Shown: piece after piece, positions 22,640 through 43,145 of the stretch
Position numbering within the stretch: position 1 is the stretch's first letter
How the letters are laid out: each line of letters begins with the position of its first letter
Virus record (IMG/VR): IMGVR_UViG_3300042090_002079
Location: 1-54,664 of that record
Strand: one strand, 5' to 3'
Length of the DNA stretch: 54,664 nucleotides
Source of the DNA: a virus
Translations under genes and position numbers: made by a program
The notes under the pieces: generated by a model
What the model saw: only the letters and a program-made list of their open reading frames with translations
Databases searched by the model: none
Told to the model about the DNA's origin: nothing

Positions 22640-23329
22640 ATGGCATCGGCCGACCTCACTACGCTCGCCACTCTCAAGGAGTGGCTGCCCGTCAACTCCA
22701 CCAACACTAACGATGACGCCACGCTTACGCGCCTCCTTACCGCTGTGAGCATGGACTTTGCCCGGGCGACCAAACGGCCGGACCTGCTGCTCGCCGAATA
22801 CACCGAGGTGCGCCAGGGCGATGGTGCGTATCGCATGATCACGTATCACTGGCCCATCGTAGCCGTAGCTACGCTCACGGTTGGCGGCATTGCGATCACT
22901 GAGAGCGAAGACAAGATCCAGAATGGCTATTACTTCGATCAGGACATCGATCCGGAGCGCATCTGGAACCTCTACCTCAACGGCTATGTCTTCACCGACG
23001 GCGCCCCCGTCGTCCTCGGGTATAGCGCCGGCTATGTCCAGCCCGGCGAGACGGTGGGGACCGGCCAGATCGCACTGCCGGAGGACATTGAACAGGCTGT
23101 TTGCGACTGGTGCGCCTATCGCTATAAAGAGCGCCCGAACGTCACGGCCACGCAGCGCCGGTCCACGCAAGGCGAGTCCGCGCAGACCGAGCTCCTCGAC
23201 GCGCCGCCTAACGTGCTTCAGGTCATCGAGCGCTACAAGCGCGATCTTCCCTCGATTGATCGCCGCGCGGATGAACGCGCCGAGCGCATGACCAGACCGG
23301 GCTTCAAATCCCAGGGGAAGAAGAAATGA
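22640..23329 (+). CDS. Head-tail connector, gp6-like
   Basis: The 229-residue protein opens like the gp6 family: LTTLATLKEWLPV, DDATLTRLLTAVSMDFARAT, then YHWPIVAVATLTVGG. A C-terminal helix block (EDIEQAVCDWCAYRYKERP) and a very basic end follow. It probably forms the second ring below the portal. It is followed directly by the exported fibre-like gene with four overlapping bases. Confidence 0.75.
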   Translation: MASADLTTLATLKEWLPVNSTNTNDDATLTRLLTAVSMDFARATKRPDLLLAEYTEVRQGDGAYRMITYHWPIVAVATLTVGGIAITESEDKIQNGYYFDQDIDPERIWNLYLNGYVFTDGAPVVLGYSAGYVQPGETVGTGQIALPEDIEQAVCDWCAYRYKERPNVTATQRRSTQGESAQTELLDAPPNVLQVIERYKRDLPSIDRRADERAERMTRPGFKSQGKKK

Positions 23330-26300
23330 AAAAGAGTCTCCTAGCGTTGCTGCTCGCCGTTCCCTGTTTCCTATTCCCTGTTCCCTGCTTCTCTCAGACG
23401 GTGCCGATCGCGGCCACTTACGTGCAGGATGGCAACAGCCTGGCGTGCCCCACCGGCACAGCCGGTGTCTGCACGATTGCCTGGGTGCCCGTGCTCTCCG
23501 GCGGAACGCCGACCGTCTATCATAAGCCTTCCGGAGGCATTGCCACGGCATCGCCGGTTACCACGTTCGTGGTGAACGGCGCCTTCTCGCTCGCCTCCAT
23601 GCCGGATTCGGCGTATACCACGCCGCTTAACTTGTGCTGGCGCGTTACGCTCAACACACCCAACGGGTCGTCGCTGCTTGGATCCTGCGTGCAGCCCAGC
23701 GCCAGCAACTACTGGTACAGCGCCGGCGTGGACAACTTCGACAACTGGCTGCCCAGCATCGCGCCTTTACCTACGATTGCTTATGTGCAAAGCGTCAATG
23801 GCTGCGCTGGCGTTTGCACGGTGAATGGCGGCAATGGCTCGATGACCTGGCCGACATACGTTGGCCTCACCGCGTACAACGGGAGCGGATGGACCACACC
23901 CACCGCCGCGATGATAGAAAGTGTGCTGGGGTTTGCGCCGCTGAATCCGGCGAACAACCTCTCCGATGTGGCCAGCTCCGCCACGGCGCGCACCAACCTG
24001 GGCCTGGGCTCCGCCGCCCAGCAGGCAGCCAGTTACTTCCAAACGGCGCTGGGTTACGCGCCGCTGAATCCGGCGGACAACCTCTCCGATGTGGCCAGCG
24101 CGGCAACGGCGCGCACCAACCTGGGCCTGGGCTCCGCCGCCCAGCAGGCAGCCAGTTACTTCCAGACGGCGCTGGGTTACGCGCCGCTGAATCCGGCCAA
24201 CAACCTGTCCGACGTGGCCAGCGCGGCAACGGCGCGCACCAACCTGGGCCTGGGCACTGCCGCGCAGCAGGCAACCTCAGCCTTCGACGCCGCCGGCGCC
24301 GCGGCTACGGCGCAGAGCAACGCGGAGGCTGCGGCGGTTGGCGGCGTGCTGAGCGGCAACCTTCCCAACCCGGGACTGTCGAGTACTCCCCACGCTCTTC
24401 CGAACGGCTGGACGGCTACCACGCAGACCACCGGCGACAACACCACCGACGTGGCTACTGACGCCTTTGTGCTGGCGAACGCTGCGAACAGTGTTTACAC
24501 CGGCGCTGTTTATGTTTCGCCGGCCTGCGGCGGCCAGGCCAACTGCTACACCATACATGACGATGTGCAGGTCGCGATGAATACGACCTATCCAGCGGGC
24601 GGCACCGGTGGAAGCACCGCAACGCTGGTCACCACAAGCGCGGATCTCTACGGCCAGTGGCTCAATGTGACCACGCCAACTTCCTACTTTGGCGGCTACG
24701 AGACCATGGGCACGGCCTATCTATCTACGACGTTCGGGCTCGCCTTCAAGGTGGCCACTACCGGTAACGTCATAAACTCGTGGGGATCGGCCGTGGCCAC
24801 CGGATCTGCTACCACGGTGACTCTCGCCGTCACGCCCACCGGTGGCTCGGGGCATATCTTGGTGGTTTGCGGGCGCCACGACACTGCGAGCACGTTGCCC
24901 ACTTATACTTTCACTGACAATTCCGGGTCGAACACTTATACGCCTGTCACCGCTTCGCCAATCACGGTTGGATATTCAAGCTACCTTTCTCAAGGTTGCG
25001 CCTATGTCCCGAACGTGGCGGGCGGATCGTACACGATCACGCTCACTTATAGCATCACCACGTATGATCGCAGCCTCGTTGCTTACGAGCTGTCCGGGAT
25101 GGCGACCAGCTCCCCGCTGGATGCTTACTCGACAAGTGTGACGACGGTTGCGGGAACGGTGGTGACCATGCAGACCATGACTACCAGCGCGAGTGATCTA
25201 GTGCTTCAGGTGTCCACGATGGCGCATAACGCAGACACCGTGACAGCGGGCAAGATCGGTACGCTTTCTTACGTGACAAATTACACCACGGGCACGAGCG
25301 GTGGTCCCGCCGATCCGGCCTTTGCGTCAACTGACGTGGGGAAGAAGATCCTGGGCACCGCTGACTGCGACGAAGGCAATGGCTATATCGACTGTTACAC
25401 GGAATTCCCCGCGGGCACGACGATTGTCGCCTACGTCTCACCCACGAGCGTTCAGTTGAGCACGCTGCCTATATTCGCACAGGCCACCACCATCTATACC
25501 TTCACGGGCTGGTTTCTATGGGGACATGACGATGGAGCGCAAATCAACGCGGCGTGGAACGCAGCGGCTGCGCTTCCCGGATATAGCCTTGTGTTGCCTT
25601 GCGGCGTGATGTTCACGGCGATACCGCCGTTTCTTTCAACCTCGGCCGGCGCGGTCTTCAATCCAAACATTAACGGCTGCTCTTCGGGCGGCTCGGCGAT
25701 TGTGCCCACCCCCGATTTCAACTATTCGCTGACCTCCGGAGGGGTCATCTATTCTTACGCGAACACGAATCAGGCGGGCTATAAGCCTCAAGGCGCTCAG
25801 GGGAATTTATATCAAAATCCGTGGGTCTACTCGCAGCTTTCGAACTTCTCGATTTGGGGTGCGGGGCAGGATGGGTCGTTTGTGTCCAACACGTTGCCCG
25901 TGCTGAACATGTACAACACGGTGGTTCAGAACGTTTGGATACTGGGTTGGGATTGGAACACGCCAACCACTTTCCCCTGTATGAGCATCACGGGGGGCGT
26001 GCTCGACGATGCTGGCGGCTGGGCTGCCTGCACCGAAGGCCTCCTAGTGGCGGGCGATCAGTCTCCAACGAACATCGGCAACAGTGCGCGCGATTGCTGG
26101 TTCGGAGCGCAGGCGAACAACCCGACGCCATTCCACATTGGTCCGGGACTCGTAATGCAAGCTGGGGATTTTGTGAGTCAGAACTGCACTTTCAACCCTG
26201 GGCATGTGGGCTACGCCACTACGGACGAAGGTGCGACTATGGCGGGCGGAACTTGGGTTTCGACGGGCGATTTTGCCGGCGGAATTCATATAGGTGGAGG

Positions 26301-26916
26301 CCAAGCTATTTTTCTCAACACCAAAGATGCCATTTTGTCTAACTACGGGGTGTATATTACCGGCGGCTCGCTGAGCGCGCAGCACTCGCAGATCGATTTC
26401 CTTAATATGACCGCCGGCACGTTCTATGATCTCGGCGATAACTACACCTGCACGACAGTTAATAACTGGCAATCCTGCGGAAGCGGCGTTGCCGGACCTT
26501 GGACCATCAACCAGCACGCCTTGACCAGTATCACCGGCGGGGTGGTCGTGGGCAGCGCTTCTTCGGCCGGCACCGCGCAGACGGCGGCGAACATCACCGC
26601 GAGCACTGGCTGGGGAACCTCCGGCGCGGCTGGCAACGGTATCTCGGCTGTCTCCGGCGGCTCGCACCGCGCGCAGTTTACCATCACCGCGGCGGGAACT
26701 CCGGGTTCAGATCCAAACGTTGCACTCACATTTCCTGTGCCATTTGCCGTGGCTCCTTTCTGCCAGGCGCAGCAAGTGGGCGGGACTGGCAGTGTCGGTG
26801 CTTTCACTAGCGGTACCACTACGACAACCTCAACGGGACCCTTCACATGGTGGGGTACGCCGGCGGCGGGATCGACCTATATCGTGCTCGTCACCTGCGA
26901 GGTTCCGGGACAATAA
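23326..26916 (+). CDS. Large exported fibre-like protein with signal peptide
   Basis: The 1196-residue protein begins with a Sec signal peptide (MKKSLLALLLAVPCFLFPV, cut after CFSQ), odd for a phage structural gene. Residues about 200-320 hold three near-identical 41-residue units (NLSDVASAATARTNLGLG), a fibre-shaft motif. A C-terminal parallel-beta-like half (about 730-1060) resembles pectate-lyase/tailspike helices. There are about 28 cysteines, many in close pairs, which suggests disulphides formed in the periplasm. It may be a surface adhesin, a depolymerase-like tailspike or a moron product. It separates connector genes from tail genes. Confidence 0.65.
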   Translation: MKKSLLALLLAVPCFLFPVPCFSQTVPIAATYVQDGNSLACPTGTAGVCTIAWVPVLSGGTPTVYHKPSGGIATASPVTTFVVNGAFSLASMPDSAYTTPLNLCWRVTLNTPNGSSLLGSCVQPSASNYWYSAGVDNFDNWLPSIAPLPTIAYVQSVNGCAGVCTVNGGNGSMTWPTYVGLTAYNGSGWTTPTAAMIESVLGFAPLNPANNLSDVASSATARTNLGLGSAAQQAASYFQTALGYAPLNPADNLSDVASAATARTNLGLGSAAQQAASYFQTALGYAPLNPANNLSDVASAATARTNLGLGTAAQQATSAFDAAGAAATAQSNAEAAAVGGVLSGNLPNPGLSSTPHALPNGWTATTQTTGDNTTDVATDAFVLANAANSVYTGAVYVSPACGGQANCYTIHDDVQVAMNTTYPAGGTGGSTATLVTTSADLYGQWLNVTTPTSYFGGYETMGTAYLSTTFGLAFKVATTGNVINSWGSAVATGSATTVTLAVTPTGGSGHILVVCGRHDTASTLPTYTFTDNSGSNTYTPVTASPITVGYSSYLSQGCAYVPNVAGGSYTITLTYSITTYDRSLVAYELSGMATSSPLDAYSTSVTTVAGTVVTMQTMTTSASDLVLQVSTMAHNADTVTAGKIGTLSYVTNYTTGTSGGPADPAFASTDVGKKILGTADCDEGNGYIDCYTEFPAGTTIVAYVSPTSVQLSTLPIFAQATTIYTFTGWFLWGHDDGAQINAAWNAAAALPGYSLVLPCGVMFTAIPPFLSTSAGAVFNPNINGCSSGGSAIVPTPDFNYSLTSGGVIYSYANTNQAGYKPQGAQGNLYQNPWVYSQLSNFSIWGAGQDGSFVSNTLPVLNMYNTVVQNVWILGWDWNTPTTFPCMSITGGVLDDAGGWAACTEGLLVAGDQSPTNIGNSARDCWFGAQANNPTPFHIGPGLVMQAGDFVSQNCTFNPGHVGYATTDEGATMAGGTWVSTGDFAGGIHIGGGQAIFLNTKDAILSNYGVYITGGSLSAQHSQIDFLNMTAGTFYDLGDNYTCTTVNNWQSCGSGVAGPWTINQHALTSITGGVVVGSASSAGTAQTAANITASTGWGTSGAAGNGISAVSGGSHRAQFTITAAGTPGSDPNVALTFPVPFAVAPFCQAQQVGGTGSVGAFTSGTTTTTSTGPFTWWGTPAAGSTYIVLVTCEVPGQ
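23363..23396 (+). repeat. Heptanucleotide repeats inside signal-peptide codons
   Basis: CCTGTTT, CCTATTC, CCTGTTC, CCTGCTT and the start of CTCTCAG lie in 7-base register. They encode the hydrophobic end of the signal peptide of the 23326 gene. Confidence 0.75.
23935..24280 (+). repeat. Tandem 123-bp repeats in fibre-like gene
   Basis: Units start at 23935, 24058 and 24181, exactly 123 bases (41 codons) apart; the third is shortened. Units two and three are almost identical at DNA level, so copy number could change by recombination. Confidence 0.9.
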
Positions 26917-26952
26917 ACGGCCCTTTGCCACAACCCTCCCTGGAGAATCGAA

Positions 26953-27324
26953 ATGAAAAAACTGTTTGCAGTTCTGCTCTTCGCGCTCGCATCCCTGGCG
27001 CATGCTCAGGCCACCGTGCCTCCGGCCGCTGCCACGTTTCAAGTAAACCTCTCCTGGACCGGGCCTGCGAGCTGCACGACGGCCGCGCCGTGCACGTACA
27101 CCGTTTACCGCGCTCCGGCGGGAGGAACGTACGCGCTGCTGGGCACTACGGCGGCGCAGACGACCACCTATAGCGACCTGACGACTACTCCGGGAAGCGC
27201 CTACACTTACATCGTCGAAACGGTGTACGAGGGCGTAAATTCAGCTCCGTCAAACCCCGTGGCTGTAACCGTTCCCGCCGTGCCCAACGCTCCCACCGTC
27301 ATCATCATCACCATCGCGCCCTGA
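26953..27324 (+). CDS. Secreted single fibronectin type III domain protein
   Basis: The 123-residue protein has a signal peptide (MKKLFAVLLFALASLAHA) and one FnIII-like domain: VNLSWTGPASC, YTVYRAPAGGTYALLG, then TPGSAYTYIVETVYEGVNS. FnIII and related Ig-like domains are common on phage surfaces, where they bind carbohydrates. A free, exported one is unusual. It follows the exported fibre-like gene and may act with it at the cell surface. Confidence 0.7.
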   Translation: MKKLFAVLLFALASLAHAQATVPPAAATFQVNLSWTGPASCTTAAPCTYTVYRAPAGGTYALLGTTAAQTTTYSDLTTTPGSAYTYIVETVYEGVNSAPSNPVAVTVPAVPNAPTVIIITIAP

Positions 27325-27340
27325 CCCCTGAATTTCGAAC
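27320..27340 (+). repeat. Heptanucleotide repeats
   Basis: CCTGACC, CCTGAAT and TTCGAAC lie in 7-base register and include the TGA stop of the FnIII gene. Confidence 0.5.
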
Positions 27341-27365
27341 TCTTTTTCACGGCGAAGGAGACGTC

Positions 27366-27548
27366 ATGGATACCAGACCGGGCTTCTCGAAGTACCTGGC
27401 CGAGCGGCTGCTGGCCACGTACAACATGCATGATGTACTCAGCGGCCCCGCGCCCGACGTGGAGCGCGTGGCCCGTTGGGTGCGTGCGGAGGTGGAAGCC
27501 TTTGTCGCCGCGCGTCGCGCAGCCGAGGCGCGGCGCCCCGGTCCCTGA
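27366..27548 (+). CDS. Small hypothetical protein
   Basis: A 60-residue helical protein (VERVARWVRAEVEAFVAARR) behind GAAGGAG. It lies between the FnIII gene and the tail-completion genes. Family unknown. Confidence 0.55.
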   Translation: MDTRPGFSKYLAERLLATYNMHDVLSGPAPDVERVARWVRAEVEAFVAARRAAEARRPGP

Positions 27549-27582
27549 TCGGTGGACTGTAACTTATGCAGTTGGAGGCGCC

Positions 27583-28122: not shown

Positions 28123-28144
28123 CGGTCAGGAATCGGCGTGGAAC

Positions 28145-28179
28145 TGACAAGTGTTTGCTGTTCACTGTCCACTGAAAGG
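28145..28179 (+). repeat. Heptanucleotide repeats
   Basis: TGACAAG, TGTTTGC, TGTTCAC, TGTCCAC and TGAAAGG run in exact 7-base register; the last unit carries the ribosome site of the next gene. Confidence 0.8.
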
Positions 28180-28187
28180 CGAACGTG

Positions 28188-28667: not shown

Positions 28668-28784
28668 CTGAGTCAGCCGTTCCGCGCGCGGGTTGGCGCT
28701 GTTCGCGCCGCGAACTCTGCCAGTTCCGCTTTTCGTTTCCAACCCGTCATCACCCGACGCTCTCTGGGCGCCCAGGAGAATACC

Positions 28785-29744
28785 ATGCTCAATCCTCAGT
28801 TTGGATCTGGGGTGCTCACCGCCATCCCCAACGCCGGTAACCTCGCCGCCAATCCTACACCCATGCAGTTCGGCCTCCTCCAGGAGGTGCAGATCGAAAT
28901 CAAGGGCGACACCAAGGAACTGTACGACAATCTGCAGATTCCGGCCGCCATCGCCCGCGGCAAAATCAAGGTCACAGGCAAGGGCAAGATGGCCTCGCTC
29001 GACCCCATGTTCTTTTCGCAGCTCTATTTCGGCCTGCCGACGACCGCCGGCGTGCTGCGCCCGGTCTACAACGAGCTGCGCACCGCGGCGGCTTCCATCA
29101 CGACGAACAACGCTGCCGCGACCGCCGATCTGGGCGTCATCGCCACGGGCGGCACGGGATTTTCTGTCGGCACGCAGCTCACCAACTCCGGGACCGCCGC
29201 GCCGTCCAGCGGGCAATACAAGTTCACCGCGTGGACTGGGACGAGCCCGGGCGCGTGGCAGGCCGAGCACACCTACGCCCTGAACGCCACCATCCTCGAT
29301 CCCGCCGGGCATACGCAGAAGGTGACCACGGCCGGAACTTCCGGGGCCGCGCTGCCGACGTTCAACGATTCACTCTCGACCACCACGGATGGCACCGTTG
29401 TGTGGACCGATCAGGGGCTTTCCGGTACCGCGGGAACCTACACGTTCAACGCTGCCGATGTGACCGCGGGCCTGACCGTGGCGCTCAATTACGTCTGGGA
29501 CGATGTTGACCACGGCGTCACTCTGGCCATCCCCGCGCAGCTCGAGGGGTACGCGCCGCAGTTCACCGTGGTGCTCTACAACAACTTCAAGGGTCAGCTC
29601 TTCGGTATCCAGCTGAATGCCTGTGTGCTGGGCGGGTGCAGTATTCCCACTAAACAGGAAGACTTTTGGGTCGCGGACTTCGACTTCTCGTGCGGCCGCG
29701 ATGCCAGCAACAACCTGGGCAGCATCTTCGCCGACCAGATCTAG
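28785..29744 (+). CDS. Major tail tube protein A, with inserted surface domain
   Basis: The 319-residue protein shares its first about 93 and last about 82 residues almost exactly with the next gene (MLNPQFGSGVLTAIPNAGN, QIEIKGDTKELYDNLQIP; end EDFWVADFDFSCGRDASNN). Those parts should build the tube. Between them it has an extra about 68-residue domain (WQAEHTYALNATILDPAGH, TTAGTSGAALP, DGTVVWTDQG). This pattern recurs in carbohydrate-binding repeats of phage proteins. The domain probably projects from the tube. Confidence 0.7.
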   Translation: MLNPQFGSGVLTAIPNAGNLAANPTPMQFGLLQEVQIEIKGDTKELYDNLQIPAAIARGKIKVTGKGKMASLDPMFFSQLYFGLPTTAGVLRPVYNELRTAAASITTNNAAATADLGVIATGGTGFSVGTQLTNSGTAAPSSGQYKFTAWTGTSPGAWQAEHTYALNATILDPAGHTQKVTTAGTSGAALPTFNDSLSTTTDGTVVWTDQGLSGTAGTYTFNAADVTAGLTVALNYVWDDVDHGVTLAIPAQLEGYAPQFTVVLYNNFKGQLFGIQLNACVLGGCSIPTKQEDFWVADFDFSCGRDASNNLGSIFADQI

Positions 29745-29798: not shown

Positions 29799-30554
29799 AT
29801 GCTCAATCCTCAGTTTGGATCTGGGGTGCTCACCGCCATCCCCAACGCCGGCAACCTCGCCACCAATCCCACGCCTATGCAATTCGGCCTCCTCCAGGAG
29901 GTGCAGATCGAAATCAAGGGCGACACGAAGGAGCTGTACGACAATCTGCAGATCCCGGCCGCCATCGCCCGCGGCAAGATCAAGGTTACGGGCAAGGGCA
30001 AGATGGCCTCGCTTGATCCCATGTTCTTTTCGCAGCTTTATTTCGGGCTGCCCACGACCGCCGGCGTTAAGCGCCCGGTCTACAACGAGGCGCACGCGGC
30101 TGCGGCATCGGTCGCGCCCGCCAACGCGCCGGTCGCGGACTTGGGCGTGATCGTCACGGGCGGTACCGGCTTCCAGGTCGGTACACAGATGACGGCCGTT
30201 ACGTCGGCGCCATCGGTGAGCGGGACCTACTATTTCAACGGTACGGCCTACGCCTTCCTGGCCGCCGATGTGAGCGCCGGTTTGACCGTGGCGCTGAACT
30301 ATACCTGGAACGACTCGACGCACGGCGTCACGCTGGCCATCCCCGCGCAGCTCGAGGGCTACGCGCCGCAGTTCACCGTGGTGCTCTACAACAACTTCAA
30401 GGGGCAGCTCTTTGGCATCCAGCTCAACGCCTGCGTGCTGGGGGGTACCAGCATTCCCACCAAGCAGGAAGACTTCTGGGTCGCGGACTTTGATTTCTCC
30501 TGCGGCCGCGACGCCAGCAACAACCTGGGCAGCATCTTCGCGGACCAGATCTAG
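29799..30554 (+). CDS. Major tail tube protein B, without insert
   Basis: The 251-residue paralogue of the preceding gene, lacking the inserted domain. Synonymous differences are scattered, so the copies are not a fresh duplication or assembly artefact. The position directly before the tail-assembly chaperone is typical for the major tail protein. Ribosome site CAGGAG lies before ATG 29799. The two forms may mix in one tube, as plain and decorated subunits. Confidence 0.75.
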   Translation: MLNPQFGSGVLTAIPNAGNLATNPTPMQFGLLQEVQIEIKGDTKELYDNLQIPAAIARGKIKVTGKGKMASLDPMFFSQLYFGLPTTAGVKRPVYNEAHAAAASVAPANAPVADLGVIVTGGTGFQVGTQMTAVTSAPSVSGTYYFNGTAYAFLAADVSAGLTVALNYTWNDSTHGVTLAIPAQLEGYAPQFTVVLYNNFKGQLFGIQLNACVLGGTSIPTKQEDFWVADFDFSCGRDASNNLGSIFADQI

Positions 30555-31952: not shown

Positions 31953-32558
31953 ATGAAAAAGTGGGCTATAGCGTTGGCGGTTTTTGCGATCATGACTGCT
32001 CAGGCACAGTCAGTCGATCACCTTACTCCGGATGAGGTAAAAGCAGCGATTGCCTTAAGGCCGGATTCCGGGTTTGTGTACATCGAGGACGCGGTCTCTT
32101 CGTTCTTCCAGGCGTGTAAGGCACAGGCTGCCTCGGAATCCATCTTCACCCCATCAGGCTGGATTAATGCGCGTTTTCGCGGCGCAAAGGAACAATACAC
32201 CGAGTTCGCGCCATCTGTAGATGACACGGCGAAAGTGTTGAGGGTGATAAGTAGGGGATGTGTCAACGGCACTGACGCCGGACCGGTGTGCGATACGGTT
32301 GATAGGGCGGTCCTGCTTTCCGATGTAGCTGGGACGGCTAAGGTTGAAGCCGTGTCTCAGACTTCGACGGAGCAGCCATGGCATAACGGCAGCGGCGCGA
32401 CCGTCACCTGCGCTTTCTTGACCAGCGAATTTCCTATGGCGGCATTGGGCACGGTGCAAAACGCGAAGGGAGAGTTCCTTATTGCGACGTTTGGCCACGG
32501 GGTGCTTCTCAATATATACACAGTGAAGCAGAAGCATCTGAAAAGGCTCGGAATCTGA
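31953..32558 (+). CDS. Secreted protein, probable moron
   Basis: The 201-residue protein has a signal peptide (MKKWAIALAVFAIMTAQAQ). The mature part has four Cys and no motif I recognise (FVYIEDAVSSFFQACKAQA, WHNGSGATVTCAF). It is inserted between the gp10-like gene and the tape measure, with a TATAAT before and an intrinsic terminator after it. Such moron units are often expressed from the prophage and alter the host surface, for example to exclude other phages. That role is inferred. Confidence 0.6.
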   Translation: MKKWAIALAVFAIMTAQAQSVDHLTPDEVKAAIALRPDSGFVYIEDAVSSFFQACKAQAASESIFTPSGWINARFRGAKEQYTEFAPSVDDTAKVLRVISRGCVNGTDAGPVCDTVDRAVLLSDVAGTAKVEAVSQTSTEQPWHNGSGATVTCAFLTSEFPMAALGTVQNAKGEFLIATFGHGVLLNIYTVKQKHLKRLGI

Positions 32559-32629: not shown

Positions 32630-35398
32630 ATGCCGGATGGAATTCTCTCGATCGGCGCAGTTTTTGAAAAGGCTCAGCTTGAGGGCGATTTCACCGAAGC
32701 CTCTGAGATGGTCAAGAGCGCTACGGAAGGCTGGTCTACAGCCTTCGAATCCTCCAAGAAGGCCACGCGGGAGGCCGCTGCGGCTATGCAGGCTTCTGTG
32801 AGGGCCTTTGCCGCAGACGTGAGCGCGAACGCGATCAAGGCTGCCGAAGGACTCAGAGGGGTCACAGCCGCGCAGACCGAGGTGCGCCTGGCTGCCAAGC
32901 TGATGAAGGACTCCACAGTTGATGCCAATTTCGGCATTCTGGCGATGGCGACTGCACAGCAAAAGCTCGCCGTTGCATCTGCCGAGGCGGCTCCTGCCGT
33001 AAGAGCCCTGGCCGAAGAAGTGGCCGCCAGTTCAGTACCTGCGGCCAGTGCCTGGCAGCGCGCGGCGCTGTCGATCCGGGAATCACTTACCAGCGTGCAG
33101 GAGAAGCTTGTCGAAACCGCCGAAACCGGCAAGTTGAGCGCGGAGGGAATGACGGCCGGCTTCGCTGGGTTGGGCTCTCTTCTCGGCGCCGGGATCGCCG
33201 CTGGCTTTGCTGGCCAGTTTTTGGATGGGCTTGCAAAAGTAAATGTCGCACTCGACCATCTTCACATTGAAACAGGCATCAGTATCACAGACCTGGCTGG
33301 GTTGCAGGAGATCGCGAAAGAGGCGGGCTCTGAGTGGGATCCTATCGCAACCGGCTTGACCCGGATGAACAAGAACCTGAACGATTCTGTGCCCCCAACG
33401 AAGCAGCTCATGGAAGCGCTGGCAGGCGTTAATCTCACGATCGCCGATTTTAAAGGCTTAACCCCGGAGGAAAAGCTGGGAAGGATTGCGCGAGCTTTCG
33501 CGGAGACGACCAACGATGCCAATCGTACCGCTGCTGCTTACGCTATTTTCGGCCGGGGTGGCGTTGCGTTGATATCTATGTTGGTAGAGCAGGGCGATCA
33601 ACTGGAAGCGAATATGAAGCGATTCGGCACACTGACCCGAGTGACCGGCGAGAGTGCCGCTGCGGCCAGGCGCTGGACGGAAGACACCGCGAAACTTTCC
33701 GCGGAGTTCCGTGGCGTGATGATGCCCGTGATGGAGCACGCGGAAGACGTGATCATGGGAATTGTTGGCGCGTGGGATGCCGCTGCCGCCGTGCTGCAGA
33801 CCGTTTTTGAGGGCATAGCGACGGGCGTCGTTGCCCTTGGCCGCCATTTCGCCGGGTTGGGCAATATTATTTGGGATGGCCTGACGGGAAACTTTGGGAA
33901 AATCGCGGCAGATTTCAAGGCTCTGAACGATGGGGTCGTAGAAACCTTCAAGAAAGGGGCTGGCGATATCGCTGAGTCCTGGAAGAAAGTCTTTTCCGAT
34001 TTCGTTGGAACCGGAATGGATGCGATCAATGGGAAGTTGGCCGCGCTCTCCAAGTCGGATATAGCTGCGAAGGGCGCGCCCGGAACGCCCGACGGCGCTT
34101 CGGATCAGTCAGGTTCCGACGGTTCTGGCTCTGGGGGTCGAAGCGGCGGGAGGGGCGCCTTTGCTGCGATGGGACCGCCGGTTCTGGCGTCCGGACCGCA
34201 GACGCAATCGCAGGATATGTCAGGCATTGAAGTCGCCGCGGTGCAGAGCGCAACCGCAGAAGAGATCAAGGCCTATCGCAATGCCGCCGAAGAGAAGATT
34301 CGCCTCGCGGGCGAGGCCTACGCCGCCGTTGAAAAGAGCGCCGACAATGAAGTGAAACTCGGGGTGATGACCGCGCAGCAGCGGGCGGCCGTGCTGACCG
34401 AAGCCGCGAAGCGCGAGAGCGATATCCGCCAGGCGCAATACGCGTTGCTGGAGATGTATGACGGGACGAGCGTCAAGCGTTTCGAGGAGGATCTGAGGCC
34501 GCAGGAAACGGCCGCAGCGCAGTGGGCATTGAAGATGGAGCAGATCAGCGCGGAGGTTGCGCAGAGGCAGCAGCAGCAGTACCAGCAGATGTTCAGCGCC
34601 ATCACCGGGCCCTTGAACTCCTTCACGGATCACTGGCTTACGAACGGCCAGCGCATGGGCGTCGCCTTCCAGAAGATGTATGACCAGATGGCGATGACTG
34701 CCATCAATACCTTGCTGAAAATTGCCGAAAGGTGGGTTGCCCATGAAATATTGCTCTCCGCGGCGCACGCCGCGGGGTTGGCCACGCGAAGAACACAGGA
34801 CGGAGTATCTTATGCGCTTTCCGACGGTCAAATGAAGGCTGAGTTGGATAAGTGGATCGCGATGGAGTGGCTCAAGGTGACCCATCATGCCGCGGCGAAC
34901 GCAGCCAAAACGATGTCGGATGCAGCGGCGGCTTTCGCGGGGGCGACCGCGGCTGCGGCAGCAGCCGGTGCGCAGGTTATGGCCCAGCACGCGGCGGCTC
35001 AGTCTGCTGCCGGCGCGGCTGCCGCGGTGGCTGCGGCCGCGGCGGCGCCTGGTGGAATCGCCGCGGCGATCGCGGCGGGGGCCGCAACCTATGGCGCTAT
35101 TTCGCCCTATGTCGTTCTGTCCGCTTTCGAGCAAGGTGGCGTGGTGGGCGGCTTTGGCGGTGGCACGGTACCGATTCTGGCGCACGCCGGCGAACGCGTG
35201 CTCTCGCAGTCGCAGACGCAAAACTTTGAGAGCATGGTGAACCAGAGCACCTCGAGCAAATCCTCCGAGGTTCACTTTCATGATCACTCGAACTGGAACG
35301 GCGTCGACGGCGCCAGTGTTGAGGGCATGTACAAAAAGAACGCCGCGGCCGGACGCCGGCAGATGATGCGGCAGTTGCGCCTTGCGAATGAGATCTAA
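32630..35398 (+). CDS. Tape measure protein
   Basis: The 922-residue protein is mostly helical: an N-terminal Ala-rich coiled coil (1-170), a hydrophobic stretch (GLGSLLGAGIAAGFAGQF, about 175-205), long helices, a Gly/Ser-rich hinge near 490-520 and a second hydrophobic Ala-rich part (about 760-830). It sets tail length and enters the host envelope during DNA injection. Length corresponds to a tail of roughly 130-140 nm by the usual 1.5 Angstrom per residue. It starts with GGAGG before ATG. Confidence 0.85.
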   Translation: MPDGILSIGAVFEKAQLEGDFTEASEMVKSATEGWSTAFESSKKATREAAAAMQASVRAFAADVSANAIKAAEGLRGVTAAQTEVRLAAKLMKDSTVDANFGILAMATAQQKLAVASAEAAPAVRALAEEVAASSVPAASAWQRAALSIRESLTSVQEKLVETAETGKLSAEGMTAGFAGLGSLLGAGIAAGFAGQFLDGLAKVNVALDHLHIETGISITDLAGLQEIAKEAGSEWDPIATGLTRMNKNLNDSVPPTKQLMEALAGVNLTIADFKGLTPEEKLGRIARAFAETTNDANRTAAAYAIFGRGGVALISMLVEQGDQLEANMKRFGTLTRVTGESAAAARRWTEDTAKLSAEFRGVMMPVMEHAEDVIMGIVGAWDAAAAVLQTVFEGIATGVVALGRHFAGLGNIIWDGLTGNFGKIAADFKALNDGVVETFKKGAGDIAESWKKVFSDFVGTGMDAINGKLAALSKSDIAAKGAPGTPDGASDQSGSDGSGSGGRSGGRGAFAAMGPPVLASGPQTQSQDMSGIEVAAVQSATAEEIKAYRNAAEEKIRLAGEAYAAVEKSADNEVKLGVMTAQQRAAVLTEAAKRESDIRQAQYALLEMYDGTSVKRFEEDLRPQETAAAQWALKMEQISAEVAQRQQQQYQQMFSAITGPLNSFTDHWLTNGQRMGVAFQKMYDQMAMTAINTLLKIAERWVAHEILLSAAHAAGLATRRTQDGVSYALSDGQMKAELDKWIAMEWLKVTHHAAANAAKTMSDAAAAFAGATAAAAAAGAQVMAQHAAAQSAAGAAAAVAAAAAAPGGIAAAIAAGAATYGAISPYVVLSAFEQGGVVGGFGGGTVPILAHAGERVLSQSQTQNFESMVNQSTSSKSSEVHFHDHSNWNGVDGASVEGMYKKNAAAGRRQMMRQLRLANEI

Positions 35399-35497: not shown

Positions 35498-36196
35498 ATG
35501 AGTCTTAGCTTTCCCAATCTCGTGCTGCCGACGTGCGTCGGGTGGAGCTTTGCGAAGCGGTCGAAGTTTTCCACGATTCAGCAGACGCCGCAATCGATGC
35601 GGCACCCGGCTTCGGCCACGCTGCAAACGAGCGTGATCTACGAGCTGGAGATGACCTACGAGTTCCTGAAGAACGCGGGCCGCACCTATGCGGACGACAT
35701 GCGCTACCTGCAGGATTTCTACGAGGCCTGCCGCGGCGGGTATGGCTGGTTTACCTTTGACCCTTCGCAGTACAACCTGGACGTGATGAGCGTAGCGCAG
35801 ATCCCCGCCTCGGGCAGCTATCCGCAGCGCAACGGCTTCTTCGCCATCGGGGATGGAGTGACCACCGCGTTCCCATTGTGGCGCTCGGGCACGCCCTTTG
35901 GCCCGACAACGTTAACCCAGCTCGAGCTGATCCAGAATATTACGCTGCTGACCGGCATCTACTCGAACGGCACATTGGTTTCAAGTTCCGCCTATACGGT
36001 GGCCAGCCTGGGTGCGCCGCCGCAAGGCGGCGCGTATGTCACCTTCACCGCCGCGCCGGTGTCGGGCGCGGTTCTGAGCTGGGCGGGCGATTACAGCTAT
36101 CTCTGTCACTTCTCCGACGACGTGCTCGATCCGGAAGAGTTCATGTATCAGTTCTGGGAGCTCAAGAGCCTGAAACTGGAGACGATCAACCTATGA
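35498..36196 (+). CDS. DUF2460 distal tail protein
   Basis: The 232-residue protein matches DUF2460: a start with FPNLVLPTCVGWSF, then YELEMTYEFLKNAG, LQDFYEACRGGYGWFTFDPS and DEFMYQFWELKSLKLETI-like end (EEFMYQFWELKSLKLETI). In GTA and many siphophages it forms the distal tail ring at the base of the tail tube. It overlaps the DUF2163 gene by four bases in the usual cluster order. Confidence 0.88.
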   Translation: MSLSFPNLVLPTCVGWSFAKRSKFSTIQQTPQSMRHPASATLQTSVIYELEMTYEFLKNAGRTYADDMRYLQDFYEACRGGYGWFTFDPSQYNLDVMSVAQIPASGSYPQRNGFFAIGDGVTTAFPLWRSGTPFGPTTLTQLELIQNITLLTGIYSNGTLVSSSAYTVASLGAPPQGGAYVTFTAAPVSGAVLSWAGDYSYLCHFSDDVLDPEEFMYQFWELKSLKLETINL

Positions 36197-37149
36197 AAGC
36201 CTACAGTGCAGATCTGATGGCTCTGTTGGCCAGCGGCGTCCCGTGCACGCGCACGGACCTGTTCGCGATCGGACCCTGCCAGAACGGCGCGTATCTCTAC
36301 GCTACCAATGGCAAGCTGCCCGTAAAGTTTGGTGGCAACACCTATCAGCCGTCGCAGTGGGGCTCCTGGTCCCGCGGCGACGTGACGGTCAAAATTGGGC
36401 TGGAGTCGAACTCCTGCGATCTGACTGTCTTTGCTGACAACCAGGTGCCTGTCTATTTTCCCGGTACGGGCACAGCGGCGGCGCTGATGAGCGGAATCAA
36501 GGTGGGCCTGCTGGGCAATGCCGGCGTGACCATCTATACGCTCTATAACTCGGACTATCTTGCAGGTTGCAGTTTTCCGGCCGTCACCGGGCCCACTGGC
36601 GGGTCGCTGGTCGAAACGAAGTTTGTCGGCATGGTGGGGCCGGTTCCCAAGGCCGGCATGACCGTGGCGCAGATCACTGTGCAGGATATGATGTACCTGC
36701 TGAACACGCAGGTGCCCCCCCGGGTCATCCAGGCCTCCTGTTCGCATACGCTCTACGATGTGGGCTGCACGCTCTCAGCCGCCGCGTTTACCAAGACCGG
36801 CGCAGTGGCCGCGCTTGTCTATCCATACCAGTTCACCACCGCGGCGCACATTGCCACCGCGTCTCCGGCCGGAACGTTTGCGCAGGGCTTGCTGACCTGG
36901 ACGAGCGGCGCGAACAGCGGCCTTACCTATTGCGTGGCGGCGTGGACGCCGGGCGGATCGAGCGACGTGATCGTGCTGGATGTGCAGCCCATCTTTCCCA
37001 TTGCTCCCGGAGATGCCTTCACTATCCGCGAGGGTTGCAACAAGACCTTCGCGTCGTGCGCCAATCTGCAGCCGTCCTCCACGGCGGCCTACACCAACTT
37101 TGGCGGCCAGCCGGATACGCCGGTACCGGAAACCGCGATCGGCGGATAA
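36193..37149 (+). CDS. DUF2163 tail-tip protein (hub)
   Basis: The 318-residue protein shows DUF2163 features: an N-terminal CTRTDLFAI, LESNSCDLTVF, then CSHTLYDVGCTL and a C-terminal GCNKTFASCANL with FGGQPDTPVPE. The last two Cys motifs correspond to the family's conserved cysteines, which in GTA bind an iron-sulphur cluster. It forms the hub of the tail tip. ATG 36193 overlaps the DUF2460 stop. Confidence 0.85.
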   Translation: MKAYSADLMALLASGVPCTRTDLFAIGPCQNGAYLYATNGKLPVKFGGNTYQPSQWGSWSRGDVTVKIGLESNSCDLTVFADNQVPVYFPGTGTAAALMSGIKVGLLGNAGVTIYTLYNSDYLAGCSFPAVTGPTGGSLVETKFVGMVGPVPKAGMTVAQITVQDMMYLLNTQVPPRVIQASCSHTLYDVGCTLSAAAFTKTGAVAALVYPYQFTTAAHIATASPAGTFAQGLLTWTSGANSGLTYCVAAWTPGGSSDVIVLDVQPIFPIAPGDAFTIREGCNKTFASCANLQPSSTAAYTNFGGQPDTPVPETAIGG

Positions 37150-37173
37150 GCCACGGGCCGGGGTTCAGAAAGC

Positions 37174-37623
37174 ATGCTCAACGAAGCTCAATTCCGCGAC
37201 GCCATTGTGGCCGAAGCGCGCACCTGGATTGGCACGCCATATCGTGTGGGCGGCGCCGTCAAGGGTGTGGGTGTCAACTGCGCCCAGTTGCTGTTTTGCG
37301 TGGCGCGGAATGCCGGCGTGCTTCCGGCGAATGCGCCACTGCCGCGCTGGTATACGCCGCAGCTCGCCACCAACAGCAAGGAAGAGCGGCTCATCGCCTA
37401 TGTCACCGCGTACGGTGCGGTGGAAGTAGCCGAGGCCTCGGTCAAGCCCGGGGATATTGTGCTCTACAAAACCGGCAAGGCGCACGGCCATGCGGCCATC
37501 GTCCTGGATTGGCCACGCATCGTTCATGCGCTGCCGATTGTGGGCTGCCAGATGGGCGACGTGGATGAAGGGCGCCTGGGCGCGTTCTCGCGCCGCTACT
37601 TCACTCTCTGGACGGGTGCATAG
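37174..37623 (+). CDS. NlpC/P60 tail-tip peptidase
   Basis: The 149-residue protein has an N-terminal WIGTPYRVGG, nucleophile Cys36 in GVNCAQLL, and His106 in KAHGHAAIVL. This is the standard NlpC/P60 layout of tail-associated peptidoglycan endopeptidases that open the wall during infection. It stands between DUF2163 and the central tail-tip protein, as in GTA-like clusters. It ends one base before the next start. Confidence 0.88.
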   Translation: MLNEAQFRDAIVAEARTWIGTPYRVGGAVKGVGVNCAQLLFCVARNAGVLPANAPLPRWYTPQLATNSKEERLIAYVTAYGAVEVAEASVKPGDIVLYKTGKAHGHAAIVLDWPRIVHALPIVGCQMGDVDEGRLGAFSRRYFTLWTGA

Positions 37624-40600
37624 ATGGGTCTCATCGGCAATACGCAGGGACAGCCGCGCTACTCGGGAGAGTTGCATAACCTGCAACTTACGCAGAGCGT
37701 CTTCGGCACGACCGCCACGGCGGTCCACGGCACCGATCGCGTGGCTGGCAAGCTGCTTTTCTATGGCGGCTTCTGGGCTACGCCAGCTCCCAATCAGGGC
37801 AAAGGCCTGGGCGGCGGCAAGAGCGACACGCAGTACAACTATTACGCCGATTGCCAGCTGCTGCTGGCGTCAGGGAGCGCCGGGGGCGGCTGCCGGGGCA
37901 TCCTCAGCATCTGGGATCAGCAGGGCAAGCTGGCCAACGCGGGCGGCGCCTACGTTTATACGATTCCCCCGGGCGGGGGCACGATCAACCCGCAGGCCGC
38001 CGGCGCGCCGTCCATCCAGCTCGACCTGGGCGTTTCCAAGTCGGTCGCGTATTCCGTCATCGCCAACGACTACGCCAGCGGCGGATCGCGCACGCTGACA
38101 GGCACGCAGATGGTCGCCATGGCCAAGGTGACCGGGACGCCTGCCGCTGGACAATATGCATTCAACTCGACGACGGGCGCCTATACCTTTGCAGCGGCCG
38201 ATGCCGGCGCCTCCGTCACCATCAGCTACAGCACGGTCTTCTCGCTTTATTACTTTACGACCACGCAGCCGGCCGAGGTTCCGCTGCTCTCGCCCTATCA
38301 GATCTCCACCAATAATCAGCAGTACTTCTGGTCGGACGGCGGCGTGATCCGCGTGGACACCGGCGCAGCGCTCGCCTATGGCGCGGGGACCAACGGCTAT
38401 ACGCAGAGCGACGGCGTTTACACCTTTACCAGCGACCTCGCCGGCGTGTACGTCTACATTACCTATACCTTCACCTCAAGCGATTCCAGCCTCACCAACA
38501 CCAGCACACTCAACCTCACTTTCTTCGGCGGCTCGCTGGGCCAGGCCCCCAACTCCTACTGGCAGTCGCAATATCCCGGCTCAGCCTTTGGCTATCCGGG
38601 CATCTGCCACGTGGATGCCAACCCTATGGCGCTGGGCGAAAGCGCCACGCTGCCCTGTTACAACTATGAAGTCGTCGGCCTGAACATCTTTCCCGGCGGC
38701 GGCCTCGACGCGCACTTCTGCGACGTCTTCCGCACTCATCTTTATGATGCCTTTCTCGGCGTTGGATTCCCCCAGGCCAACGTGGACGCGTGGACCAGCT
38801 GCTACGCCTATTGGGCGGCGAACGGATATCTGGGGAAAGTTAAGCTGGACACGCAGACGTCCGTTGCCACGGCGCTGAAGGAAGTGATTGAAACCGGCAA
38901 CGTGGGCGCGGTCTGGTCCGGGGGCCTGCTCAAACTGATTCCCTACGGCGACTCGACCTGCGTCGGCAATGGTTACACCTACACGCCCAACACCACGCCG
39001 GTGGCCACGCTCACCAACAATGATCTGCTGCCGTCTTCCGAGAAGAAGGCCGGCGAGTCGAGCAGCGAGGATCCGGTGCCATGGGAGGTAAGGGCGCCGC
39101 AGGACTGCTGGAACTATGTGCAGGCACAGTACTGCAACCGCCTCAACGACTACAACAATGAGCTGATCAACGAGCAGAACGACGCTTTCATTGCGCGCTA
39201 TGGGCGCCGCATCGAGTCGCCTCAGACCTGGGACTGGATCACCACCGCAGCCGCGGCGCAGTGGGCGCTGAATCTGCGCCTGAAGCGCCAGTGCTACATT
39301 ACGAACACCTGCAAACTCTGGCTCTCGTATCGCTTCAGTTATCTCGAACCAATGGACATCATCACGCTGCCGACCGGCGAGAACATCCGCATCACCCAGA
39401 TCACCGACGATGCCAATGGACGGCTGGCGATTGAGGCTGAGCAGTGGACGTACGGCAGCTCGACGGCCAGCATTTATTCCAAGCAGGCCCCGTCGAGCTT
39501 CCAGCCGAGCTTGTCCAGCGCGCTGCCTGGCGACGCGGTGCCCATTGTGGTGCAGAACACGCTGGCCCTCACGCCCGGCTCGCCCTATACGGTGCAGATC
39601 GCCGGCGCCGGCAAGAGTCCCAACTGGGGCGGCGCGAACGTCTTTTTGTCGCTCGACGGCAATACCTATGCGCAGATCGGGACCATCGCGGCGCCTTCCG
39701 TGATCGGGATGCTGAGCGCGCCACTGGCTGCCGGCTCCGATCCGGACACGGCGGATACGTTGAGCGTGGATCTGACGCTCTCGCCGCCTTCGGCTGAGCT
39801 CGTCAGCGTAACACAGACACTCGCGGACGCCTATACCACGCTCTGTGTCATTGTGGATCAGACGTTGAACACCTTCGAGCTGATCTCCTATGAGAACGCG
39901 GTGCTTACCGCCGCCGCGCGTTACAACTTGACCTACCTTCGCCGCGGCATCTACAGCAGTCCCGTGGCGGCGCACGCAATGGGCGCATGGTTCGCCTTTC
40001 TCGGGCCGAACTACAACTTCAGCACCTACACCTTCCGCGCGGCGTTGATGGGGACGCCATTCTATATCAAGCTGCAGAGCTTCAACCTGGCTGGACGGCA
40101 GGTTGAAAATCTGGCCGACTGCACTGCCTGGGAGTTCCTGCTTGGCTACCAGGAAGGAGCGCGGACTGTTTACACGCCCAGCCAGGTGACCAACCTGCAG
40201 AGCGGTCCCCTGGCGACGGTAACTAACCCGGATAACGCGCTGAACCAGCAATCCTCTTCGGCTGCGATCTTTGACAGCATCTTCGGGACGCTGGGCGGCG
40301 CAAACACGGCGTCGGCAGACTACACGGGCTTTCCGTCAGTCGTGCTGCCCTACCCGGCAACGCTTTATATCGGCTATCAGAATCTGCGCGGCAATGGATC
40401 GATCGGAGGCACGCTCCATTTCCTGGCCAACGCGGAGATTTCCGTCTCGCTTAATAACGGCAGCACTTTTGCCGTATTAGCTCAGAGCGCGCGGCAGCAG
40501 CTTTATAACGTTTCGCCCAACTCGAAGTCAGGCACGCTGAGCATCAGCGTTCCGGCGGGTACCAATCTGTCCAATATCATCGTCGCGGTCTCCGCGATGT

Positions 40601-40683
40601 CTAACCAGGAAGGAACCGTCGGAACGCCGGGGACTGGCGAGGTCGAAGGTCATGTGGAGATTTTAAGGATATGGCTGCAATGA
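37624..40683 (+). CDS. Central tail-tip / host-specificity protein (megatron-like)
   Basis: The 1019-residue protein follows NlpC in the place of the GTA megatron or lambda J. The N-terminus (NTQGQPRYSGELHNLQLTQS) and the core (NYEVVGLNIFPGG, QDCWNYVQAQYCNRLNDYNN, YLEPMDIITLPTGENIRI) resemble tail-tip proteins of this cluster. An FnIII- or Ig-like segment lies at about 150-290. The C-terminal 200 residues are beta-rich and probably contact the host. It binds the receptor and closes the tail until injection. Confidence 0.78.
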   Translation: MGLIGNTQGQPRYSGELHNLQLTQSVFGTTATAVHGTDRVAGKLLFYGGFWATPAPNQGKGLGGGKSDTQYNYYADCQLLLASGSAGGGCRGILSIWDQQGKLANAGGAYVYTIPPGGGTINPQAAGAPSIQLDLGVSKSVAYSVIANDYASGGSRTLTGTQMVAMAKVTGTPAAGQYAFNSTTGAYTFAAADAGASVTISYSTVFSLYYFTTTQPAEVPLLSPYQISTNNQQYFWSDGGVIRVDTGAALAYGAGTNGYTQSDGVYTFTSDLAGVYVYITYTFTSSDSSLTNTSTLNLTFFGGSLGQAPNSYWQSQYPGSAFGYPGICHVDANPMALGESATLPCYNYEVVGLNIFPGGGLDAHFCDVFRTHLYDAFLGVGFPQANVDAWTSCYAYWAANGYLGKVKLDTQTSVATALKEVIETGNVGAVWSGGLLKLIPYGDSTCVGNGYTYTPNTTPVATLTNNDLLPSSEKKAGESSSEDPVPWEVRAPQDCWNYVQAQYCNRLNDYNNELINEQNDAFIARYGRRIESPQTWDWITTAAAAQWALNLRLKRQCYITNTCKLWLSYRFSYLEPMDIITLPTGENIRITQITDDANGRLAIEAEQWTYGSSTASIYSKQAPSSFQPSLSSALPGDAVPIVVQNTLALTPGSPYTVQIAGAGKSPNWGGANVFLSLDGNTYAQIGTIAAPSVIGMLSAPLAAGSDPDTADTLSVDLTLSPPSAELVSVTQTLADAYTTLCVIVDQTLNTFELISYENAVLTAAARYNLTYLRRGIYSSPVAAHAMGAWFAFLGPNYNFSTYTFRAALMGTPFYIKLQSFNLAGRQVENLADCTAWEFLLGYQEGARTVYTPSQVTNLQSGPLATVTNPDNALNQQSSSAAIFDSIFGTLGGANTASADYTGFPSVVLPYPATLYIGYQNLRGNGSIGGTLHFLANAEISVSLNNGSTFAVLAQSARQQLYNVSPNSKSGTLSISVPAGTNLSNIIVAVSAMSNQEGTVGTPGTGEVEGHVEILRIWLQ

Positions 40684-43145
40684 TCAAACGGATCGCATTT
40701 ACTCTTTCTGCTTTGTTTTCGCTGGTGCTCGCACCGGCCCTGGCGCAATACAGCGGCGCGCCCGCCAGCGTTGTCGGCTATAACAAAGGCCAGGCGGTGA
40801 GCAACACGCTTTATGCCGGCAGTCCCTTCGCCGGGCTTTTTGTCGCAGAGATAGACGGCCTGGGGCGTGACAGCGAGCTGGAAGAGACGCCGCAGAACCT
40901 GCTGGTGGAGCAGCTCGTCTCGCACACTCTGGGTACCGTCTACGGCCACAACGCCGTGCAGTACTGCGACTCGCCCGGCGATTGCATTCCATTTATCTCC
41001 GAGGCCTATAACGTCGGCGTGGATGCCGCGCAGAACGAGGGCGAGGACTGGCACATCCGCCTGCAGGAAAACGGCTACGTCTTCCAGGGCACGGTCAACA
41101 GTTATGCCTGCAGCTCGAGCCCGGCGGTGTGCACGTGGAACCTGACGCAGACGCAGGGCTGGGGCGCGGTGCCCTTCGGCGCCACCCGGCAGGTCGGGAT
41201 CCAGCTCGGCGAGGGGTTGCAGCTTATCGATATTACCCATGGCTACAGCACCGGCTCCATCTCCGCCATCAGCGCGCCGCTCATCACCGGCAGCGGCGTC
41301 AACTGGGACTCGACCTTCGGCGATACGTTCGCCCAGGCGGTGACCACCGCGGCAGTCAATAACGGCGGCGGTCCCAACAGCTTCCCGCAGACCAACGTGA
41401 CGGTTTCCACCGGCGCCTGGACCGGAACCTTTACGGTGAGCGCAACGCCGGTCTGCTTTTTCGATACGGAAGACACGCGCTATCAGTGCGCGAAGATCAC
41501 GGCCGTCTCCGCCAACGCTTCCATTACGGTGGATCGGCTGCAATGGCCGATCACGTCGGGATCGGCCGTCGACCAGGGTGGCCTGACCGGCTATTGTTTC
41601 GGCATGGATCTCGATATCGTCTCGGCTTCCGGCTTGAACGGCTATGGGAACCCGACCGATGCGGCCGTGGTGAACCCCATCCGGCGCTGCCAGCCTATTC
41701 AATTCAACACCTCGGGGAATACGCTAACCCTCTATGTGAATGCCTCGGGCGAAACGGCTTTCGTCACGCGCGCCAATCCCGCCGTTGCCGGCTCTGGCGC
41801 GTACCATATTTACCCCGCGGCTATGACCGAGACGGTGTTGAACGCCGCCAGCGGCCAGGTGGACGGGGGCGGAATCACCACCACACCTTTCGTGGGAACT
41901 TTCGCCACGAACGATACGGTTGAGCAGCCACACTATTATGCCGGCCGCGGCGGAAATCTCAACTGGGCTTCCGATACCTGGCAGAACGCGCCGGGCTGGG
42001 CATCGAGCTTTAACTTCAACGTGGGCGGCTCGGGCGCGGTGGACGGCTATCCGCAGGGGTACATCACCAACGCGAACAGTCCCACGATTTACTGGGGGCT
42101 TCCGTCGGCGCTCTCGATGGCTTCCACGCCCGGCTACGGGAACCTTTTTACCCCGCACGGCGTCGATTTCGGCGGCCCCTACGCCTCGGCGATCCACATG
42201 AATACGCCGCCGTTTGGTGAGTACTACCAGATGGGCGGCCTCTACATCAGCTGCGGCGGCCCATCGAGCTCTAACACCTGGTGTCAAGACTGGAACCAGA
42301 ACGTGTGGATGCTGACCGTGCAGAACCGCGGCGGCACGGGCGGAGCGACCTTTCCTTATGCGGAAGACAGTCTCGCGTATAACCCCTACACCTATACATG
42401 GTCATTGAGTTCGGGAGGCACGGGGCCGAACGGCGGGAGCGCACCGTGCACGCAGCTCTGGGGGCCGACTGGATGGTCGCAGACCGGCGTCGGCTGCTCC
42501 GCGCCGACGCAGCTGGTCGGCTCGGCAGCCTTTATCAATCTTGCCAGCGGTATCACCGCACAGCCCGCGTCTACTTATCTGCCTACGAATAATATCTTCG
42601 CGCAGGGCTTCACCGATCTGAACGACGGCGGCTATTCCTGGGGTACGTTTGCCGGCAAGGATTCCTTGGGGAATCAGTGGAAGTACAACATCATGAACTC
42701 CGGCAACAGCGGCTGGGGCTTCTGCGTGTACAGCACGGCCAGCGGTCCGGTCACCGTGACTACGCCCTCGCAGCTGGCGTACTGCCATCAGCTTTCCAGC
42801 TACGGCACGGTCAATGACACGATTCCGACGGAGGTCATTGGTATGGTGTCGTCCGCGACCGGCGGCTCCGGCGTCTCATCTGTGAGTTGCGCATCATCTT
42901 CCTGCACGAACCTGTCGGGAAGTTATGCCATCTCGCCCGGGACGTTTGCGACGGGCAATCTTTTAACCCTGGTGTGGCCGGCGACGCCCACCGCGTACAA
43001 GTGCCTCGTCGCGCAGAACGGGGGCGCGGGCTGGTACGCAATTGGGCATGCAGCGGCCAGTACAACCGGCCTGGTCATCACGAACGGGTTCACCGTGTCA
43101 GGCGCGGCTACCTTCACTGTCGATTATGTCTGCTCGCCGAACTAG
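40680..43145 (+). CDS. Second large exported fibre-like protein
   Basis: The 821-residue protein has a signal peptide (MIKRIAFTLSALFSLVLAP, cut after ALAQ). It is rich in Gly, Ser, Thr and aromatic residues, with about 25 Cys, mostly in pairs (SYACSSSPAVCTW, CPSS-like CGGPSSSNTWCQDW). Its pattern resembles secreted carbohydrate-active or adhesive beta proteins more than a tail fibre. It overlaps the tail-tip stop (ATGA), so it is translated with virion genes yet exported. It may bind or cleave surface glycans. Family not recognised. Confidence 0.55.
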   Translation: MIKRIAFTLSALFSLVLAPALAQYSGAPASVVGYNKGQAVSNTLYAGSPFAGLFVAEIDGLGRDSELEETPQNLLVEQLVSHTLGTVYGHNAVQYCDSPGDCIPFISEAYNVGVDAAQNEGEDWHIRLQENGYVFQGTVNSYACSSSPAVCTWNLTQTQGWGAVPFGATRQVGIQLGEGLQLIDITHGYSTGSISAISAPLITGSGVNWDSTFGDTFAQAVTTAAVNNGGGPNSFPQTNVTVSTGAWTGTFTVSATPVCFFDTEDTRYQCAKITAVSANASITVDRLQWPITSGSAVDQGGLTGYCFGMDLDIVSASGLNGYGNPTDAAVVNPIRRCQPIQFNTSGNTLTLYVNASGETAFVTRANPAVAGSGAYHIYPAAMTETVLNAASGQVDGGGITTTPFVGTFATNDTVEQPHYYAGRGGNLNWASDTWQNAPGWASSFNFNVGGSGAVDGYPQGYITNANSPTIYWGLPSALSMASTPGYGNLFTPHGVDFGGPYASAIHMNTPPFGEYYQMGGLYISCGGPSSSNTWCQDWNQNVWMLTVQNRGGTGGATFPYAEDSLAYNPYTYTWSLSSGGTGPNGGSAPCTQLWGPTGWSQTGVGCSAPTQLVGSAAFINLASGITAQPASTYLPTNNIFAQGFTDLNDGGYSWGTFAGKDSLGNQWKYNIMNSGNSGWGFCVYSTASGPVTVTTPSQLAYCHQLSSYGTVNDTIPTEVIGMVSSATGGSGVSSVSCASSSCTNLSGSYAISPGTFATGNLLTLVWPATPTAYKCLVAQNGGAGWYAIGHAAASTTGLVITNGFTVSGAATFTVDYVCSPN

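Follow-up and report, generated by a model that had tools for sequence, protein, structure and literature searches.

Putative periplasmic, disulfide-rich tail fibres with Sec signal peptides in phages of Acidobacteriota

Related systems and the tail region of the window

The general view is that tailed phages complete their virions ahead of lysis, while still inside the cytoplasm. The fibre-like genes analysed here resemble known tail fibres and spikes (collagen-like, GDSL-esterase and beta-helix types) in genomic position, fibre repeats, a collagen-like stretch and GDSL esterase or beta-helix domains, but differ from them in adding a Sec signal peptide (SP) and a high, even and locally paired cysteine content. 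Checks of tail genes from lambda, Mx8, B40-8, 11b and the Brevundimonas, Pseudomonas KT1 and Acinetobacter phages detected no fibre SP, and searches of the open-licence literature turned up no tail fibre described as having a signal peptide.

Partial likenesses do exist. In lambda, as in the window, an SP gene directly follows the tail tip gene, but its product, Lom, is a small outer-membrane protein with one cysteine and is not fibre-like. WceF of Pantoea has a tailspike fold and is exported from the cytoplasm, but it is a bacterial enzyme using the Tat route, and no phage is involved (PMC7949094). Both precedents favour the main rival to virion fibres, namely that the genes described below encode exported non-virion proteins of the periplasm or surface, moron-like as Lom, which would mask receptors, block superinfection or digest exopolysaccharide; on the evidence presented below, we regard this rival as unlikely. 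The cultured phages Tunturi 1, 2 and 4 are alike in carrying large SP fibre or spike genes with even cysteine counts in the tail region; Tunturi 1 and 2 are podoviruses of Tunturiibacter, and signal peptides were not mentioned by the authors who described them (PMC11924767).

The window, i.e. the whole stretch of DNA analysed, is an entire IMG/VR virus record of 54,664 bases. The hosts of its nearest relatives belong to Acidobacteriota, and one relative (L016) lies inside an uncultured Acidobacteriaceae MAG. The gene order is of the long-tailed phage type, with some of the names below resting on gene order and sequence reading:

8411: terminase
10296: portal
11951 (11951-13426): prohead protease
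14037: capsid
28785: tail tube
32630..35398, + strand: tape measure protein, no SP, 0 Cys
35498..37623, + strand: tail tip module upstream of the tail tip gene, no SP
37624..40683, + strand: tail tip protein (Phage-tail_3 and Rcc01698_C), no SP

The module at 35498..37623 comprises 232-aa and 318-aa tail proteins (DUF2460/DUF2163-type by gene order) and an NlpC/P60 protein (37174); its homologues in the annotated phage L160 bear the same DUF2460, DUF2163 and NlpC/P60 names. The tail tip gene, also encoded by 15 of 397 genomes of the host order, was used as the anchor for comparative analysis. The window also contains tandem major-tail-protein paralogues (28785-29744 and 29799-30554), which are 65% identical, with nearly identical ends and differing middles; a Cys-rich C-terminal tail on the prohead protease (CACACGQCKAGNCEICSCENCACDGCACD); and a tRNA-Trp gene (13763-13837) between the protease and capsid genes.

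Signal peptides and cysteines

Five window proteins carry predicted Sec signal peptides:

17703..18437, + strand: SP nuclease, 4 mature Cys; start MRMQSICGALLALGMFCRA followed by QPCP
23326..26916, + strand: 1196-aa SP tail-fibre-like protein with matches to PHROG tail-fibre profiles; ATGA overlap with 22640-23329
23326..23394, + strand: signal peptide of the 1196-aa protein, residues 1-23, predicted cleavage between CFS and QTVP; start MKKSLLALLLAVPCFLFPVPCFS followed by QTVP
26953..27324, + strand: 123-aa SP fn3-like protein, 2 Cys; start MKKLFAVLLFALASLAHA followed by QATV
31953..32558, + strand: 201-aa SP protein, 4 Cys, directly before the tape measure gene; start MKKWAIALAVFAIMTAQA followed by QSVD
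40680..43145, + strand: 821-aa SP protein, directly after the tail tip gene, ATGA overlap with its stop
40680..40745, + strand: signal peptide of the 821-aa protein, predicted cleavage between APALA and QYSG; start MIKRIAFTLSALFSLVLAPALA followed by QYSG

All were scored with one fixed purpose-written script at a strict cut-off of 8.9, for which lambda Lom was positive and structural proteins of lambda, Mx8, B40-8 and 11b were negative. None of the 136 core virion genes of the fetched loci attained the cut-off (one reaches 8.4), and four of the five window candidates did, the exception being the nuclease, which scores 8.43, and only with the start at 17703. The window SP proteins show the positively charged n-region, hydrophobic h-region and AxA-type site of Sec and signal peptidase I substrates, with predicted cleavage of the host type between A or S and Q, the glutamine occupying position +1 in 5/5. 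A sequence-only reading had named four of these proteins, and all four are indeed present, with the nuclease lying outside the region it had delimited and the 201-aa protein having escaped it.

The 1196-aa protein consists of the signal peptide, an N-terminal beta domain of ~110 aa (termed A2), fibre repeats of the type NLSDVASAATARTNLGLG, a long shaft and a C-terminal beta domain. It matches known fibre families (phrog_2282, E=4e-8; phrog_158, E=6e-13), which bears out the description of this protein as fibre-like, and it has 24 cysteines, 22 of them mature, in short-range pairs. The 821-aa protein, counted here from the ATG at 40680 (the longest ORF starts at 40671 and yields 824 aa), has 18 mature cysteines forming nine local pairs, so that both large proteins are as rich in cysteine pairs as had been proposed. 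It has no recognisable domain and no Pfam, PHROG or INPHARED match, nor were homologues found in viral contigs, INPHARED or related records; it is provisionally filed as a fibre by its position and cysteine pattern, and the term fibre-like extends to it on position, without a family match. AlphaFold2 models reached a pLDDT of 33 for the 821-aa protein, with nothing usable, and 35 for the 1196-aa protein, with moderate confidence only at residues ~40-125; Foldseek searches of the models against PDB gave no hit with E<0.001. Each of the two genes shares 4 nt (ATGA) with the virion gene before it, which points to translational coupling and agrees with their earlier placement in the virion operon. 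The Lom or moron type, by contrast, is an independently transcribed small outer-membrane barrel.

Among the smaller proteins, the one labelled FnIII exists and has a signal peptide, while its fn3 match stays under the Pfam cut-off (20.4 vs 25 bits). A small SP gene just before the tape measure gene is also seen in L053 (14090), L059 (9434), L158 (4508) and Pseudomonas phage KT1. The nuclease is an Endonuclease_NS (PF01223 over cut-off, E=7e-34); encoded in the late operon and equipped with an SP, it could serve to remove DNA upon lysis or to act on incoming DNA in the periplasm, and its presence in the same genome lends some support to exported non-virion proteins. A further observation concerns the coding of the signal peptides: repeats of ~7 bp (TTCCCTG-like, TATTGCC-like) encode the SP hydrophobic core in the window (23326-23397), in L063 (9832-13095, minus strand) and in L065 (10498). 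Such period-7 repeats occur in 3 of 45 SP cores, and none were found at the other periods tested; since they are hydrophobic in every frame, they might help create signal peptides.

Across the comparison sets, which were gathered by tail tip and A2 searches and are not a random phage sample, the mature cysteine count was even in 57 of 59 SP proteins and odd in two (p=3e-15), with redundancy not fully removed; at the level of 60%-identity clusters, the A2 set gave 27 even and 2 odd counts (p=8e-7). Successive cysteines pair locally, with a median gap of 18 within pairs versus 63 between pairs (p=4e-51), a tendency seen in 52 of 54 informative SP proteins, whereas SP-less fibres exhibit no pairing (p=0.27) and a cysteine content of 0.63%, compared with 1.65% in SP fibres (p=7e-8). 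Genes without a signal peptide in the same loci split into 172 even and 211 odd counts. We considered the hosts as a source of the bias and rejected this option: a small set of exported host proteins comprised 14 even and 19 odd counts, indicating that pairing belongs to the fibres and not to export in general. Even, locally paired cysteines are what would be expected where disulfides form consecutively in an oxidising compartment, and VKOR was present in 12/12 host genomes tested, DsbB in 0/12. Overall, even counts, local pairing, host-type cleavage sites and host VKOR strongly support the suggestion that these proteins fold outside the cytoplasm, and judging from their sequences, export and disulfide formation of the SP fibres are very probable.

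The N-terminal hydrophobic segment might instead be something other than a working signal peptide, with a cytoplasmic protein retaining it in the virion as an uncleaved anchor or assembly peptide. SP-less homologues are presumably made in the cytoplasm, and export is here a prediction, both of which leave room for such an arrangement; the complete n/h/c architecture, the host-type glutamine at +1 and the even, locally paired cysteines that SP-less fibres lack make it improbable.

Recurrence in Acidobacteriota phages and a shared tail slot

An SP fibre-like gene was found among the next three genes downstream in 13 of 19 homologous tail tip loci, in the other loci, the fibres lacked the SP, the fibre seemed to be fused with the tail tip, or no fibre was visible. 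In matched Brevundimonas, Pseudomonas and Acinetobacter phages with the same tail tip family, no fibre SP was found. Most SP fibre genes lie at most 60 nt from the upstream gene on the same strand, and several have ATGA overlaps, an arrangement that argues against the moron-like reading.

A2 is a new domain of ~110 aa that the 1196-aa protein shares with many SP fibres, in which it directly follows the signal peptide. It is present in 40 of 397 genomes of the host order; a phylum-wide sample for other acidobacterial orders matched six genomes, all of which were already in the order sample. We also asked whether A2 could be the N-terminal domain of lambda Stf, and rejected this assignment: there was no Pfam tail-fibre match, and hhalign with lambda Stf gave 20 columns at a probability of 0.2. 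Glutamine occupies +1 in 22 of 34 phage A2 fibres and in 14 of 37 host signal peptides. The signal peptide is kept while its letters diverge, as in MKKSLLALLLAVPCFLFPVPCFS followed by QTVPIAA and MRTSVWWFLAALFLSGRFICA followed by QTVPVAA, the mature domains of which are 66% identical.

At least 36 A2 proteins have a signal peptide and eight do not, A2 beginning at about residue 3-11 in the latter, and the tree implies about 2-3 switches between the two states. The genes flanking the fibre, those of the tape measure and of the next tail protein, are homologous between loci lacking the SP (L110, L111 and L115) and loci having it (L113, L117 and L183), and the mature N-terminus of the L117 fibre aligns from residue 2 of its L110 counterpart with 54% identity, indicating that one tail slot takes a fibre with or without a signal peptide. 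That SP fibres seem to replace SP-less ones in this slot while retaining the same N-terminal domain speaks against an exported product outside the virion. C-terminal GDSL esterase domains occur in both SP and SP-less fibres, and collagen-like and beta-helix stretches in SP fibres; the esterase and beta-helix domains would, for their part, suit secreted enzymes. On L183, the stretch separating the tape measure gene from the next conserved tail gene contains five consecutive SP genes (7926-14624), all with even mature cysteine counts, one of which starts like a phosphoesterase.

A methionine is found at the junction in some SP fibres (e.g. ..PLMAQAPAGY in L117), which would allow two products per gene, with most of the protein exported and a second form, initiated internally near the cleavage site, acting as a cytoplasmic virion fibre. 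Many SP fibres have no junction methionine, and a functional cytoplasmic form would leave the paired cysteines without an explanation; we consider such dual products very improbable.

The same feature is seen in cultured phages. In Tunturi 1, signal peptides were found on gp12, gp13, gp14 (annotated tail spike or pectin lyase), gp16 and gp17, and in Tunturi 2 on those counterparts that were read; the large SP fibre or spike proteins of both phages have even mature cysteine counts, and that the large fibre and spike genes read bear signal peptides again weighs against a moron-like role. In the siphovirus Tunturi 4, signal peptides are present on gp113, gp114 and gp111, the last of these only from a start at position 80076 of the record and not from the annotated 80433, so that the annotation of gp111 seems to have taken an internal start and lost the signal peptide. 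From the upstream start (L155 30076-33171, corresponding to 80076-83171 of the Tunturi 4 record), gp111 has a full signal peptide and an even cysteine count. No SP was found on the fibres of Tunturi 3 or on the Tunturi 5 fibre genes within the 50 kb read; acidobacterial phages can thus live without SP fibres. A few A2 loci (e.g. L112) sit among chromosomal-looking genes, as would be expected of chimeric contigs or of host secreted genes beside prophages. This explanation is largely refuted by the Tunturi genomes, since the feature recurs in complete cultured phage genomes and in many independent contigs, with tail genes on both flanks, and its probability is minimal.

A candidate two-compartment virion

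In the assembly route that we propose, tail fibres or spikes would be made as Sec pre-proteins, exported by host SecYEG during late gene expression and cut by signal peptidase I between A or S and Q. They would then fold in the periplasm, where a VKOR-type oxidative system of the host would link consecutive cysteines by local disulfides (1-2, 3-4, etc.), while heads and tails would assemble in the cytoplasm. Lysis would break the inner membrane, bringing particles into contact with the periplasmic fibres, which would attach in the way that SP-less fibres of related phages do, through the same N-terminal domain. In these SP proteins, neither a transport motif nor an anchor for the outer membrane was recognised; exported proteins of such size lack an evident route across the outer membrane, which counts against a surface role, and they should remain periplasmic until lysis.

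We infer signal peptide cleavage, disulfides in the protein and the timing at lysis, and attachment to virions is suggested by the shared domain, the shared slot and the replacement pattern. Of the functions offered by the sequence-only reading, the addition of fibres at or after lysis fits best, because SP fibres share their N-terminal domain and slot with SP-less fibres and seem to replace them; coating or modification of the cell surface is a possible function that lacks specific support. Taken as a whole, Sec export, periplasmic oxidative folding and subsequent attachment to virions at lysis form a probable sequence of events. The broader view of a virion of two compartments, in which a cytoplasmic capsid and tail receive periplasmic disulfide-bonded fibres in a last assembly step at lysis and receptor binding is gained only outside the cell, is one that we lean towards slightly.

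The cultured Tunturi 1, 2 and 4 allow direct testing, and it should be kept in mind that SP fibre genes may be misannotated or mis-started. Acidobacteriota are a soil phylum of high abundance that has been little studied, and a widespread group of their phages seems to depart from the rule of cytoplasmic completion for the very part that decides host range. If true, this would explain how disulfide-rich fibres are made and would give lysis a role in assembly, and infectivity would depend on host Sec and VKOR.
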